A program made the position numbers and the translations under genes. A DNA stretch of 64,000 nucleotides from Bacillota bacterium (GTDB taxonomy: Bacteria; Bacillota; Clostridia; Peptostreptococcales; Anaerovoracaceae): the NCBI GenBank assembly GCA_017431785.1, contig JAFRKJ010000071.1, positions 124,001 through 188,000 of the forward strand, given 5' to 3'. This document shows, in pieces, positions 5,478 to 39,884 of the stretch. Positions within the stretch are counted from its first letter, which is position 1. Each line of letters opens with the position of its first letter. A model generated the notes under the pieces. That model worked only from the letters and a program-made list of their open reading frames with translations, was not told the origin of the DNA and did no database searches.

Positions 5478-6240
5478 GGCGTTTCCTCCTGCCTTTGCGT
5501 TTGACTTTGTCGCTATCGGATGCGAGGCCTTCGATCTTGCCCTCCGGTATTGTGGTGAGCGGCATGACGCCGAACTCTCTCTCTATATCCTCCGCCGATC
5601 TGAAGGTGTCATCTCTCAGGAACTGGACGGTGAAGATGGCCAGCATCAAGAGGGTCGCGAGCAGCGCGCCAATCACGGTGTTCTTCGTCAGGCTCGGGGA
5701 GCTCTTGTTAACCGGCACGATGGCGTATTCTGCAATATGCGGCGCTGGTGTTTCCATGAGCTTCGGCAGCTCGCTGACACCTTTATCCGCCAGTGAGTTG
5801 GCAATCACCATGGCCTCTTTTGGATCCGGACTTGTGATATCGATCTGGATGATTCTGGTCTCATTCACAACGGAGAGGCCCATCATACTAACGAGCTGAT
5901 TGTAGCTGTATTGGAGGTTCTGCTCCTGGATGACGCCTTCGACGATCGGTCTGGTCTTCAGCAGTTCCACGTAGTCGCCGGACAGGGACTGACCGATGTT
6001 CAGGTCTGTCAGGTCGACGACGGACTGAGAAGAAGAGTTGACCATGTACATCTTGGCGGTAGCCGTGTATTTCGGTGTGATGATGAAAGCGGTAATGAGC
6101 CCGGCAATCAATGCGCCGATGATGAAGGCGCACACGATCCACCAGATTTTGCTCATGAAGTATCCGAAGAGTTCGAGCAAGTCGATTTCCATCTCTTCGT
6201 TTCTTGTGTCTTTCAGTTCGATATCCGTATTCTGATTCAT
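5470..6240 (-). CDS. CpsC/Wzz-type polysaccharide co-polymerase, activator of the tyrosine kinase
   Basis: An inner-membrane chain-length determinant. Two transmembrane helices flank an extracytoplasmic domain: one near residues 32-54 (WWIVCAFIIGALIAGLITAF) and one near residues 197-220. The short cytoplasmic C-terminus ends in KRKGRRKRRG and in Gram-positives activates the separate kinase. A proline-rich segment before the second helix (ETPAPHIAEYAIVPVNKSSPS) is typical of Wzz proteins. The 256 residues match the split CpsC/CpsD arrangement of Firmicutes. Its start lies 2 bp after the stop of the LCP gene and its end overlaps the kinase start. Confidence 0.9.
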   Translation of the reverse strand: MNQNTDIELKDTRNEEMEIDLLELFGYFMSKIWWIVCAFIIGALIAGLITAFIITPKYTATAKMYMVNSSSQSVVDLTDLNIGQSLSGDYVELLKTRPIVEGVIQEQNLQYSYNQLVSMMGLSVVNETRIIQIDITSPDPKEAMVIANSLADKGVSELPKLMETPAPHIAEYAIVPVNKSSPSLTKNTVIGALLATLLMLAIFTVQFLRDDTFRSAEDIEREFGVMPLTTIPEGKIEGLASDSDKVKRKGRRKRRG

Positions 6241-14516: not shown

Positions 14517-15341
14517 TTATCTTTCGTTTGCTGTCTTGTCTGCTTCCGCCAGATCTTTCCCGTGGAAATCTGATCCTCTGGTGATGTGAAGGTGATACTT
14601 CTCCGCCATTTCGACGAAGCGCATGGACTGCTCGAAGTTCTGATCAGGGTGGAAACACTCGAGTCCTTTGAGCCCCTGCTTCTTGAGTCTTCCGATGATC
14701 ATGTCCATGTTCTTGAAGAACTCTTCGCTTCCCGGGCGGCCTACGCCGCGGGTCTGGATCGGATGGGCGAGCACCGGCATGCCACCGGCCTGCTTGATCA
14801 CATCTATGGCTTCACGGGCAAGGGGCTTGACTTTCCTGATGGCGCGGCACTTCTTGCTGCCCAGGATGTCCTTCCCAAAAGCCTGCCGCGGATCGTCTAT
14901 GTAGCCTTTGCTTACCATTGCCCGGGCTATGATCGGTTTGCCGATGAACTCGTTCTTGCCGTATTCAATGTCATCCTTCGTCAGCTCGTAACCCATTTCG
15001 CTCAGGGCTTTGAAGAGCTGCTCGTTTCTCTCCTTGCGCCGCTCCACCATGGCGCTGAGAAACTCTTTCAGTTCTTTGTTCTCCTCGTCGATGTAGTAGC
15101 CGAGCATGTGAAGGCCTGTCCCTTCCTCTGTGACTACCGCGATCTCGATGCCGGGAACAAAACGGATGCCGACCGCTTCTGCCGCGATTCTGGCCTCCGC
15201 GATTCCATTGGTGTTGTCGTGGTCCGTAATGGCTATGATGTCGTACTCCAGTTCGGCGGCGCGTCTGATGATCTGTGTCGGCGTCGCTTCCCCGTCCGAT
15301 GCTGTTGTATGGATATGGAAATCTACTTTATAATCATTCAA
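14517..15341 (-). CDS. PHP-domain phosphoesterase (nucleoside bisphosphate phosphatase / TrpH-like)
   Basis: A metal-dependent phosphoesterase of the PHP superfamily, related to E. coli YciV/RnaAM, which acts on 3',5'-nucleoside bisphosphates and short RNA. N-terminal metal ligands are in VDFHIHTTASDGEATP and AITDHDNTNG, followed by GIEIAV. Later ligands are AHPIQTRG and TRGSDFHGKD at the C-terminus. The 274 residues are typical. Its start overlaps the end of xpt by 8 bp, so the two are translationally coupled. The true substrate is uncertain; a nucleotide-recycling role fits its partner. Confidence 0.82.
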   Translation of the reverse strand: MNDYKVDFHIHTTASDGEATPTQIIRRAAELEYDIIAITDHDNTNGIAEARIAAEAVGIRFVPGIEIAVVTEEGTGLHMLGYYIDEENKELKEFLSAMVERRKERNEQLFKALSEMGYELTKDDIEYGKNEFIGKPIIARAMVSKGYIDDPRQAFGKDILGSKKCRAIRKVKPLAREAIDVIKQAGGMPVLAHPIQTRGVGRPGSEEFFKNMDMIIGRLKKQGLKGLECFHPDQNFEQSMRFVEMAEKYHLHITRGSDFHGKDLAEADKTANER

Positions 15342-18753: not shown

Positions 18754-18829
18754 GCCACTGTAGCTCATTCGGCAGAGCAGCGCATTCGTAACGCGCAGGT
18801 GGCCGGTTCGATCCCGGCCAGTGGCTCCA
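18754..18829 (+). tRNA. tRNA-Thr (anticodon CGT)
   Basis: A full cloverleaf of 76 nt: acceptor GCCACTG/CAGTGGC, D-arm GCTC/GAGC, anticodon loop TTCGTAA, T-arm GCCGG/CCGGC. The 3' CCA is encoded. The anticodon CGT reads the threonine codon ACG. There is one A-C mismatch at the base of the anticodon loop. Confidence 0.93.
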
Positions 18830-18832
18830 TCT

Positions 18833-18908
18833 GGGGCATTGGCGCAGCTGGGAGCGCGCATGACTGGCAGTCATGAGGTCAGGGGTTCGAGCCCCCTATG
18901 CTCCACCA
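18833..18908 (+). tRNA. tRNA-Ala (anticodon GGC)
   Basis: A full cloverleaf of 76 nt with encoded CCA. The acceptor GGGGCAT/ATGCTCC includes the G3-U70 pair that marks alanine tRNAs. The anticodon loop is CTGGCAG, so the anticodon GGC reads GCC and GCU. It lies three bases after tRNA-Thr and ends in a strong terminator. Its middle part is duplicated at 11444-11476. Confidence 0.95.
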
Positions 18909-19567: not shown

Positions 19568-19596
19568 CAGAGAGGCTGTTGGCCTCTCTGTTTTTT
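19568..19596 (+). terminator. Rho-independent terminator after the prolyl-tRNA deacylase gene
   Basis: CAGAGAGGC and GCCTCTCTG form a perfect 9-bp stem with a TGTTG loop and end in TTTTTT. It lies 28 bases after the stop codon. Confidence 0.9.
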
Positions 19597-19622
19597 CGGG
19601 TCGCCCTCTCCTGGGCGACCCG
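19597..19622. repeat. Perfect 10-bp GC-rich hairpin
   Basis: CGGGTCGCCC and GGGCGACCCG flank the loop TCTCCT. It abuts the preceding terminator and has no T-tract, so it is a separate palindrome. It is the first of three GC-rich hairpins in a row within the 19541-20207 gap. Confidence 0.7.
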
Positions 19623-19713
19623 AGTCTGTTTCACCGCTCGCTTTCGCCTGATAGCTGGCCGCACGGCCGACAGTTACCGCCGGCGGCCAGCGGCGAGCTC
19701 GCGGGAACAGACT
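19623..19713. repeat. 91-bp imperfect palindrome (long hairpin or cruciform)
   Basis: The arms pair in four blocks: AGTCTGTT with AACAGACT, CCGC with GCGG, TCGC with GCGA, and GCTGGCCGC with GCGGCCAGC. This gives about 25 paired bases with small bulges and an internal side loop. It starts at the base after the previous hairpin. I do not recognise a known non-coding RNA. Confidence 0.65.
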
Positions 19714-19755
19714 GGAGAATATGGCTGGACTGGTGTGCGTGGCGTATGGATAACA

Positions 19756-19800
19756 TGCTGCAGGGCTGTGGACAGCAAAGCTGCCCACAGCCCTGCAGCA
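19756..19800. repeat. 45-bp near-perfect hairpin
   Basis: TGCTGCAGGGCTGTGG (19756-19771) pairs perfectly with its complement at 19785-19800. After one A-C mismatch, CAGC and GCTG close an AAA loop. The total is 20 base pairs. Flanking GGATAAC/GTTACCC can extend it. It has no T-tract. It is strikingly regular for intergenic DNA and may be a repeat element or a structured RNA. Confidence 0.7.
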
Positions 19801-19854
19801 GTTACCCACAAGCCACGTGGAAATAAAAAAGCGCCGGGTTAATGACAATCAGGT

Positions 19855-20093
19855 TTACTGATAATGAATGAATTGAAACTAAATCAGTAAGCACTTACTG
19901 AAATAGATCATTATCTTGATTGTTCAGTATGGAACACCCAACTCTTTACTGAAAAGAATATTTGTTGAGTTTATTCAGTAAGAAGAAACAACAAACAAAG
20001 AATAGAGCATATTAATCTTACTGATTTTGCATGGTTTGATTCTGTATCGGTAACAGATTACTGATAATTATAAATTGCGTCTAAAAACGGTAA
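19855..20093. repeat. Array of five 36-bp dyad units, TTACTGA-N22-TCRGTAA
   Basis: Five units start at 19855, 19895, 19946, 20018 and 20058. Each begins with TTACTGA. Each ends, starting exactly 29 bases later, with TCAGTAA, TCAGTAT, TCAGTAA, TCGGTAA or ACGGTAA respectively. The 22-base interiors differ but share a central TTG near unit position 19-23. Units 1 and 2 abut to make the palindrome TCAGTAAGCACTTACTGA (19884-19901). The array is AT-rich and lies 64-300 bp upstream of the promoter of the nuclease-like gene. It looks like a set of protein-binding sites. Type I or II CRISPR features are absent. Confidence 0.8.
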
Positions 20094-20156
20094 GAACAAT
20101 TCGAGTTGTTGTTTCTATGTTTGTTGCTTTTGCATGAAGAACTTCTATTAAATTCC

Positions 20157-20185
20157 TTGACTGGTAATTATTTCCTTTGTATGAT
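20157..20185 (+). promoter_or_regulatory. Promoter of the nuclease-like gene
   Basis: TTGACT (20157-20162) and TATGAT (20180-20185) are separated by exactly 17 bp. Each matches the consensus at five of six positions. The ribosome site AAAGGAGGG begins six bases later, so the leader is very short. Confidence 0.7.
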
Positions 20186-20207
20186 AGGGCAAAGGAGGGT
20201 TACGGGA

Positions 20208-21122
20208 ATGGATGATTCGAAAAATGTGTGGACGGCGCGGAAATCTGTCATTAATTGCTCGGGGTTGGCGCAGCTAAATTTTCTGAAGATGCTTTCGGGG
20301 TCGATTCGGGAGTTGGTTGTAGCAGAGCAGACGCAAATCGATTTGATGAAGCAGGAGCTTGCCCTTCTCAGAGAGGCAAGTCTGAATCTGCATTGCAGCG
20401 GGGAAAACAGGAATTTCTACAGTTATGATAGGTCACGCGGAAAAGCCGTTGGAATTACAGGTGATTTGGATCTGGTGTACGAGCTGGCGAGGCGAGCTTT
20501 TCTGGAGAATCGGATACGAGCGATGGAGGATAATGCGCGTCGGCTTTTAAAGGTGGTGGAGTGTTCGGAGGGTCTGGTGCATGAGCGCATGCTACAGAAA
20601 CGATTGGGCAGGTTTCAGCAGGCGGGATTGGATCTCAGCCGGATTTTGTTTACAAAGGAGCAGAACGAGTGGATTGATGCGCCTTATTCACCAAACCCGT
20701 ATTATCCGGAAAACCGGCAGTATCCGACAGACGGTGGGATGCTGATGCGATCGAAGTCTGAGACGACAATAGGAAACTCGCTGGAAGCAATTGGCTGGCC
20801 CTACCGGTATGATGATCTGGTGATGATTCGTGGCGGACATGGTGGAGAGATGCCGCATCGAAGTAGTTATTACTCGGATTTTAAGGTGCCGAATGTGATT
20901 GGCGGGATTACCGTGCATGAACATTTCGGGGCGTTTCAAATTGATCAGTACTCGGATAATGCTTTGGTACGGCTGAATGACTATAGGAATTTCAGGGTTT
21001 ATGAGCTGCCCAATCAGGCGGTGCGGCCAGAGGAATTTACCTGGTCGTTGGAGGCCGACTTGCGGGAGAAGTCGTTGATGCGGCAGATGATCCGGCGGAT
21101 GTTGCTGCCGTGCGGAGTGTGA
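20208..21122 (+). CDS. Putative PD-(D/E)XK-like protein of unknown function
   Basis: A 304-residue protein. The N-terminal 150 residues are helical (ELVVAEQTQIDLMKQELALL, then RAFLENRIRAMEDNARRLLK). The C-terminal domain carries RSKSETTIGNSLEAIGWPYR, YYSDFKVP, and VHEHFGAFQIDQY. From memory this resembles an uncharacterised clostridial family with RSKSE, YPDF and EHFG motifs, whose spacing suggests a PD-(D/E)XK nuclease core. Here P of the PDF motif is S. Nuclease activity is inference. AAAGGAGGG precedes the ATG at eight bases; upstream starts lack this. Codon use (many CGG, TTG, GGG) differs from neighbours, which hints at horizontal transfer. Confidence 0.7.
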   Translation: MDDSKNVWTARKSVINCSGLAQLNFLKMLSGSIRELVVAEQTQIDLMKQELALLREASLNLHCSGENRNFYSYDRSRGKAVGITGDLDLVYELARRAFLENRIRAMEDNARRLLKVVECSEGLVHERMLQKRLGRFQQAGLDLSRILFTKEQNEWIDAPYSPNPYYPENRQYPTDGGMLMRSKSETTIGNSLEAIGWPYRYDDLVMIRGGHGGEMPHRSSYYSDFKVPNVIGGITVHEHFGAFQIDQYSDNALVRLNDYRNFRVYELPNQAVRPEEFTWSLEADLREKSLMRQMIRRMLLPCGV

Positions 21123-21198
21123 ACAGCGAAGGTTGCCGCGCGGGGTGTGAGCGGCGGTTGCTGCTGGAGTGTGAGAGGTTGCTGCTGGAGTGAGAGAG
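21101..21198. repeat. Degenerate tandem repeat spanning the 3' end of the nuclease-like gene
   Basis: Four units begin with GTTGC at 21101, 21132, 21157 and 21178. The last two are 21 bp and nearly identical (GTTGCTGCTGGAGTG core). The first two are longer, at 31 and 25 bp, and more diverged. The first unit encodes the protein's C-terminus and stop, so the repeat probably arose by duplication of the gene end. Confidence 0.65.
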
Positions 21199-21224
21199 AG
21201 GGATAGAAGATGGGAAATAAAAGA

Positions 21225-21246
21225 GCAGCACGCCTATGCGTGCCGC
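21225..21246 (-). terminator. Terminator of the amidohydrolase operon
   Basis: On the minus strand GCGGCACGC and GCGTGCTGC pair (one wobble, ATAG loop) and are followed by TCTTTTATTT. It closes the catabolic operon 39 bases after the amidohydrolase stop. Confidence 0.75.
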
Positions 21247-39470: not shown

Positions 39471-39490
39471 CGCCAATTTCTACGTACTCC

Positions 39491-39555
39491 CCAATAGTCG
39501 TAACTCAGGCGTTACGGTAGAGACGCACTACACCATTTCTTCGTGCTTATATTGG
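39491..39555 (-). promoter_or_regulatory. Guanine-type purine riboswitch aptamer
   Basis: On the minus strand P1 is CCAATA/TATTGG. J1/2 is TAA. P2 (GCAC/GTGC with some mismatches) carries loop GAAATGG. J2/3 reads TCTCTACC, P3 is GTAAC/GTTAC with CC in its loop, and J3/1 is GACTAT. The C in GAC at the specificity position indicates guanine or hypoxanthine rather than adenine. U51 in J2/3 argues against the deoxyguanosine variant. It controls the bmpA-nupOPQ operon. Confidence 0.9.
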
Positions 39556-39884
39556 CATGTATTGAATTAGTATGGCTTGTGGAATGCAGTTTGCCTGTAC
39601 ACAACATATTGTGCTTTTTGAGCTGTTTCTCATGATGTGATTTCAGCTGTTTTGCAGTCCCTTAACCACAGTTTGAGTGTACCAATTCAGGGGTTCAGTG
39701 TCAATGAGTTTTACCCTCTGGAGGGCTCATTTAAAGGTCATTTTGTGCATATTTTTAAATACATTGCCAATGGTTTCCAAATCGTTACAACACTTTCCAA
39801 ATCATGCAAATCATTTCCAAAATAGGGGTAATTTACATCGGTGTCAAAGTCGCCGTAAAATGCAGAAAATGCCTGTCGGCATCC
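39556..39884. other. Non-coding gap between the riboswitch and the apt-like promoter
   Basis: No convincing ORF. The left end must hold the minus-strand promoter of the bmp operon, but I see no clear -35/-10 pair. TGTACACAAC...GTTGTGTACA-like symmetry near 39597 is incomplete. The remainder is AT-rich with three TTTCCAAATC-like words (39775-39815) and nothing I can name. Confidence 0.3.

Follow-up and report, generated by a model that had tools for sequence, protein, structure and literature searches.

Helically phased arrays of inverted half-sites linked to a PD-(D/E)XK-like gene family, a candidate class of mobile repeat in Clostridia

The array at the locus

The window analysed here is a stretch of 64,000 nucleotides from a Bacillota bacterium of the family Anaerovoracaceae, and it belongs to a draft genome (hereafter G000) of 2.7 Mb in 96 contigs that is 81% complete. 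It contains an array of five dyads of the form TTACTGA-N22-TCRGTAA, in which pattern matching places the arms exactly 29 bases apart, start to start, in all five units, each at the position reported in the first-pass annotation (Table 1). The array is followed by a gene for a nuclease-like protein, and two tRNA genes lie upstream of it (18754-18905). Within the segment that is missing from a sister species, an 80-bp stretch (19738-19817) matches its own reverse complement at 84%, and a purine riboswitch match is found elsewhere in the window (39475-39574, minus strand).

Table 1. Positions of the array, the adjoining gene and related features in the window
Feature	Position	Strand	Description
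Dyad 1	19855..19890		TTACTGA-N22-TCAGTAA, exact match
Dyad 2	19895..19930		TTACTGA-N22-TCAGTAT, one mismatch (last base off); step 40 from dyad 1
Dyad 3	19946..19981		TTACTGA-N22-TCAGTAA, exact; step 51
Dyad 4	20018..20053		TTACTGA-N22-TCGGTAA, one change; step 72
Dyad 5	20058..20093		TTACTGA-N22-ACGGTAA, two changes; step 40
Five-dyad array	19855..20093		Steps 40-51-72-40, or 4-5-7-4 helical turns; layout recurs with other half-sites
Promoter-like sequence	20157..20185	+	TTGACT-N17-TATGAT, between array and gene; by eye
PD-(D/E)XK-like nuclease gene	20208..21122	+	ORF, 304 aa; presumed cognate protein
Segment missing in sister species G008	19594..21242		Lies between the same two genes; edges approximate

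With up to three mismatches allowed, the window holds 17 dyad matches against 6.45 expected, a number reached in three of 100 shuffles; single dyads are not rare, and it is the array that exceeds chance. With up to one mismatch, the pattern matches 18 times on both strands of the whole draft genome, always inside the window array or a second array on another contig (C22:5971-6208), and the reversed control pattern matches seven times, so that the pattern stands above background frequency. When dinucleotide-shuffled sequence was scanned for arrays that share arms and spacing, none was returned. The genome count and these empty shuffled controls rule out a chance origin of the window array.

The C22 array has steps of 40-51-71-40 and interiors unrelated to those of the window, and the family search of the draft genome recognised no nuclease family gene on that contig. 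A further C22 array with the half-site TAC[AG]AG..CT[TC]GTA (about 5661-5893, steps 41-52-62-41) has a homologous copy at 15025. Between the window array and its C22 counterpart, 61 of 70 arm positions are identical versus 39 of 110 interior positions, and two other array pairs give 62/70 versus 40/115 and 65/70 versus 48/115. Thus, arms are kept while interiors decay in several array pairs, in line with the earlier proposal that selection acts on arms and spacing rather than on a copied repeat; the exception is the recent pair C22-B/C22-C, whose interiors are conserved like the arms (100/115 and 60/70). Because the dyad interiors of the window array are unrelated, recent tandem copying is ruled out as its source, although such copying does occur elsewhere, in units of 73 bp (L076) and 74 bp (L014) with shared interiors. 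In an empty-site comparison, the DNA flanking the C22 arrays had no match in the sister species G008 or in G042. In genome G004, an array of a different half-site lies behind the same gene as at C22. A possible hot spot is seen in two species, where arrays with different half-sites (L011, 5525-6365; L199, 1204-1491) lie downstream of the same glutamine-amidotransferase-like gene.

Inverted arms might instead mark a structured RNA or a REP-like element that acts as a single-strand hairpin. The window array does fold better than most shuffled sequences, with z-scores of -3.37 and -2.60 on the two strands and one and none of 200 shuffles folding as well, but the fold predicted for the plus strand joins arms across dyads and not the two arms of a dyad. 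Moreover, arms within dyads do not covary across 14 arrays (429 matches versus 427.2 expected, sd 3.4; 1753 of 5000 shuffles reach this value), and this independent variation makes base-paired hairpins unlikely. With no Rfam match at the window array, and with whole-turn spacing left unexplained, this reading is extremely improbable. A CRISPR array is excluded by the layout, since the repeats are 7-bp inverted half-sites at irregular steps.

The nuclease-like gene family and its arrays

At E up to 10, neither Pfam nor NCBIfam offers a match to the gene that adjoins the window array. Nevertheless, residues 162-283 of its product match the end of the PADLOC profile PDC-S68 (E 3e-9), which is matched C-terminally by all seven family members in the draft genome, the window gene included, and three of the seven also match HEAT_CxxC_PDDEXK (best E 3.4e-6). 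In an alignment of 97 proteins, E185 and D224 are invariant, and L59, W155, R181, S182, E238, H239, G241 and Y248 are likewise conserved at 90% or more of sequences; the family carries a conserved EHxG where ExK is usual. The conserved acidic residues fit a PD-(D/E)XK core, assigned by motif, and the earlier description of the gene as nuclease-like is supported. A search by sequence for a solved structural relative gave only one chance-level match (E 2.5), and no transposase family appears among the Pfam matches of the seven members at E up to 1.

The family is multicopy. Homologs occur in 46 of 49 genomes of the genus. The sample of the bacterial family has them in 139 of 247 genomes, from 50 of 92 genera, and a phylum-wide sample in 13 of 398 genomes. 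Among these 13, the genome's own entry and four from one other family of the class (f15) match most of the model, and the other eight, one of them from the same bacterial family, match its C-terminal part alone; in this sample the C-terminal domain is also found within long open frames. A number of the listed homologs carry internal stops. Phage and plasmid searches with the L013 paralog as query yielded one partial match each, and among viral contigs searched with alignment A2, 203 stretches match a pattern and none is a relative. By eye, promoters in the nuclease clade look alike (near TTGACTTCCATATTTTTCCATATTATAAT) despite differing half-sites, as seen in the window (20157-20185) and upstream of L058, L112, L103, L062 and L061, a resemblance that may mark a common regulator.

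To assess linkage, 60 further loci, top-ranked among the matches listed, were fetched together with 19 control stretches of 15 kb. Arrays of at least two dyads lie within 550 bp of 61 of 99 distinct genes and arrays of at least three dyads beside 41 of 99, compared with 3 and 1 of 247 control segments under the union of the same nine parameter sets. Taken set by set, arrays are found in 25 to 65 of 214 gene flanks, in none of the shuffled flanks and in 0-3 of 247 control segments, where control segments are mostly coding and gene flanks partly intergenic, so that the shuffles alone correct for composition. The whole control scan gave two arrays in 285 kb. Both lie in L127, from genome G045, and the half-site of one recurs in an array beside a G045 family gene. 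No array was detected for the remaining 38 of the 99 distinct genes, some of whose flanks are truncated at contig ends; of the 61 array-bearing genes, 20 are weaker cases with two dyads only, several of which fall in a subgroup with a common TGGG-type arm. Such TGGG-type arms, not a private half-site, lie upstream of the gene at L018, L044, L049, L059, L070, L081, L090 and L099, and are also seen at L247; a short stretch with arms of this type also occupies the G036 gap syntenic to a G004 array. Arrays adjoin homologs in other genera of the bacterial family as well (L154, L155, L167, L171), and several such loci show none. Of the roles that the first-pass annotation had offered for the array, this linkage favours that of a target of the encoded protein.

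Another of those roles, an operator through which the protein represses or activates its own promoter, is distinctly improbable. The window array does end about 65 bp before the promoter-like sequence, and 37 of 64 flanks that carry an array of at least two dyads lie upstream of the gene, but the other 27 are downstream (three genes have both), including that of L077, the gene whose product is most similar to the window protein among those compared (59%). Because arrays lie upstream, downstream or alone, the operator reading is weakened, and it leaves the dispersed solo arrays unexplained; with so many arrays lacking an adjoining nuclease, the data do not favour regulation of this gene as their main role. 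A transposon with arrays at both ends likewise fits only a few loci (L017/L038, L076, L107 and, weakly, L046). Cognate dyads are present on the other flank for 7 of 41 arrays (5 of 39 genes), versus 3 of 301 in a foreign-matrix control, and since they are seldom on both sides, most loci do not have the gene enclosed by two transposon ends. At L158, in another genus, similar short-spaced dyads flank the homolog on both sides (1071-1475 and 2517-2746).

The spacing of dyads follows the double helix. The steps from dyad to dyad cluster at whole turns (n=131, R 0.725 at 10.4-10.5 bp), and with one value per distinct step per array of at least three dyads the clustering is tighter (n=82, R 0.82-0.83 at 10.4-10.5 bp), with a phase near zero (0.04 bp at 10.4). 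Therefore, all sites face one side of the double helix, and such phasing is characteristic of sites contacted on a single face of double-stranded DNA. In line with the earlier suggestions, this supports a protein that grips two half-sites within a multimer.

The layout itself is also conserved. The 4-5-7-4-turn plan of the window recurs, apart from L062 as mirror or near versions, with five other half-sites: TTCCCR at L062, whose protein is 45% identical and whose steps equal those of the window; TTACCCA at L096 (40-73-51-40); TTGTCCA at L109 (40-71-52-40); TTGTCTC at L154 in another genus (40-72-50-40); and GTACAAG (41-73-51-41 and mirror forms). When fitted to 23 arrays, picked mostly for similar-looking steps, the plan holds within 2 bp for all five dyads in nine (window, L062, L096, L109, L245, L237, L239, L242, L243) and for four dyads in four (C22-A, L058, L154, L236), and fails in ten; five of the 13 fitting arrays are solo arrays from one genome. 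L103 and L034 returned no array under the limits of this fit, and alternative plans exist elsewhere (52-73-52-52 and 62-63-43-63-63). Thus, the expectation that arm spacing would be kept in relatives holds for the spacing of related systems, whereas the half-site sequence differs.

Half-sites mostly differ between arrays. Among 41 arrays (820 pairs), both pairs with protein identity above 80% agree, six pairs at 60-80% agree partly, and pairs below 60% are on average hardly above background. The similarity of half-sites tracks protein identity weakly (Mantel r 0.233, exceeded in 0 of 2000 permutations, with just 2 of 820 pairs above 80% identity), and a few distant proteins have similar half-sites. 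A weak enrichment of A/T is seen at the dyad centre (0.66 versus 0.60 elsewhere in the interior), with the centre exceeding the remainder in 29 of 43 arrays. Several specificities per genome, the linkage of gene and array and the conserved acidic residues would also suit a nuclease toxin restrained by its own DNA, in which arrays serve as sponge or protection sites and the pair is kept together because loss is harmful. However, the internal stops in listed homologs and the persistence of arrays on a contig with no recognised gene speak against such a toxin, which we consider very unlikely.

Solo arrays and empty sites

Arrays are also dispersed through some genomes, many of them with no nuclease gene beside them. 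The exact pattern TACRAG-N23-CTYGTA occurs 22 times in G004, seven times in G000 and 0-2 times in each of 47 other genomes (reversed control, 0-4 per genome), and TTGTCAC-N25-GTGACAA occurs 65 times in G045 and in none of the other 48 genomes, with a single control match, in G031; some of the 65 are assembly duplicates, because the same sequences recur on two contig pairs. Both G004 and G045 have a family gene adjoining an array of the abundant half-site, whereas the 81%-complete G000 has TACRAG arrays and no gene recognised as cognate. Sequence similarity identifies six G004 copies of about 260 bp, most pairs being 80-90% identical and L240 more diverged, and the other copies have little in common except arms and steps. 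Eleven G045 arrays restrict their steps to 52, 53, 73 or 84. By eye, a TGCAAARGCTG-like motif, possibly a further site, recurs in most long linkers of the 73-bp steps in G045, and a pairwise comparison in mixed orientation gave these linkers no excess of identity (0.35 versus 0.37 in interiors).

The placement of these solo arrays bears on the reading that a sequence-specific binder coats them to control or silence neighbouring genes, so that arrays are selected cis-regulatory modules spread by ordinary recombination. In G045 (L296-L304 and L127), every one of the ten solo arrays examined stops 14-64 bp short of a start codon, on its upstream side, and a ribosome-binding-site-like sequence precedes the codon. 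The distance is 48-52 bp in five of them, and the start at L298 was chosen by eye over a TTG 1 bp away. It is because of this placement that the regulatory rival remains. In addition, retention of geometry and arms while interiors decay is what such modules would show, and helical phasing suits cooperative binding. Nevertheless, the genes adjoining the G045 solo arrays, named by eye from printed proteins, look like unrelated metabolic and housekeeping genes, other arrays sit between convergent genes (L236, L011, L199), gain is species-specific in many places, and E185 and D224 are invariant. A regulon is unlikely, while being the foremost rival.

Syntenic sites in related genomes point to movement. 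In the sister species G008, with flanks 92% identical, 34 bp separate the two matches that are 1690 bp apart in the window, and therefore array and gene came or went as a unit, although the lack in G008 could be a deletion. The gaps that contain the G004 solo arrays L238 and L239 measure about 475-540 bp. At the L238 site, eight of nine sister gaps read are 77-190 bp, and the ninth (L256) is 348 bp, with a further match that puts it near 146; for L239, eight of ten are 77-186 bp, and those of G021 (504) and G036 (702) hold other DNA. Taking both arrays together, 16 of the 19 gaps read in sister species are short. Arrays of at least three dyads are absent from all 29 syntenic loci fetched; L267 gives one two-dyad match, 249 bp apart. 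Homology among five G004 copies begins near the outer half-site and extends some tens of bases beyond the other end, and neither precise boundaries nor target-site duplications could be defined. In a comparison for recent transfer, L014/L029 are 98-100% identical over the unit versus 89-99% in the flanks, and L017/L038 lack this contrast.

A candidate repeat-and-enzyme system

The explanation we prefer, evenly balanced in our judgement between right and wrong, is that these arrays are dispersed, non-coding and mobile, and that a cognate nuclease-like protein binds them in double-stranded form and moves or copies them. The repeat unit would typically comprise four to six dyads, five in the window, each made of two 6-8 bp half-sites about three helical turns apart (about four in some subfamilies), with successive dyads whole turns apart so that all sites lie on one side of the helix. 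Encoded beside one copy, the PD-(D/E)XK-like protein would bind the half-sites of its own family as dimers, the bound dimers may assemble into one large nucleoprotein complex, and the nuclease would then be used to copy or move arrays into new intergenic sites. That the cognate protein is the binder, an active nuclease and the driver of movement is what we infer from these patterns. The broader claim is more tentative, and we think it somewhat likelier to fail than to hold: a new class of mobile element in which a PD-(D/E)XK enzyme spreads helically phased dyad arrays, the architecture being conserved and the specificity replaced within tens of percent of protein divergence, with several enzyme-array families per genome.

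Several known systems offer partial parallels. Lambdoid repressor-type operators comprise several dyads in helical register with a half-site private to each paralog, and the arrays share both properties, but they occur downstream of their gene as well, and at many other intergenic positions. Like the arrays, MITEs derived from classical insertion sequences are short, non-coding, lineage-specific and intergenic; for the arrays, neither a DDE enzyme nor terminal inverted repeats with target duplication could be shown, and the internal dyad plan is kept while sequence diverges. The PADLOC candidate PDC-S68 (a profile of about 1200 positions with no description) and HEAT_CxxC_PDDEXK have a similar C-terminal domain, but they are long, whereas the proteins here have a short variable N-terminal part and adjoining arrays.

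The closest parallel is REPIN/RAYT. Passages of PMC2817692 describe dispersed non-coding palindromic repeats and a gene tied to its own repeat type, with repeat abundance linked to the presence of the gene and the two diverging together (PMC2817692). By that account, the dyad arrays are similar in being dispersed, non-coding, palindromic and associated with their own gene, and copies are abundant where the cognate gene is present, as in G045 and G004, but with G000 as the exception noted above. In contrast to RAYT, an IS200/IS605-type tyrosine enzyme, the protein is PD-(D/E)XK-like and has no HUH pair among the positions conserved at 90% or more in the 97 proteins; unlike REPINs, the arrays are dyads in helical phase without arm covariation; and whereas repeats are described as flanking a RAYT gene on both sides in every case, cognate dyads on a second flank are the minority case here. 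The best reading is that the arrays would work like REPIN/RAYT with an unrelated protein. The first-pass annotation knew of no described element with this pattern, and the titles and opening lines of abstracts returned by searches of the open-licence PMC literature likewise contain no description of one. A scattered repeat with kept spacing and a motif that changes from family to family is thus apparently undescribed.

If true, the proposal adds a repeat-and-enzyme class to gut Clostridia-type genomes, with the rare feature of a nucleoprotein layout that keeps to the helical turn even as the recognised word is replaced. If the protein is the binder, the many gene-array pairs would form a natural data set on change in DNA-binding specificity. 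Because the arrays are species-private, comparison of strains can test mobility directly.
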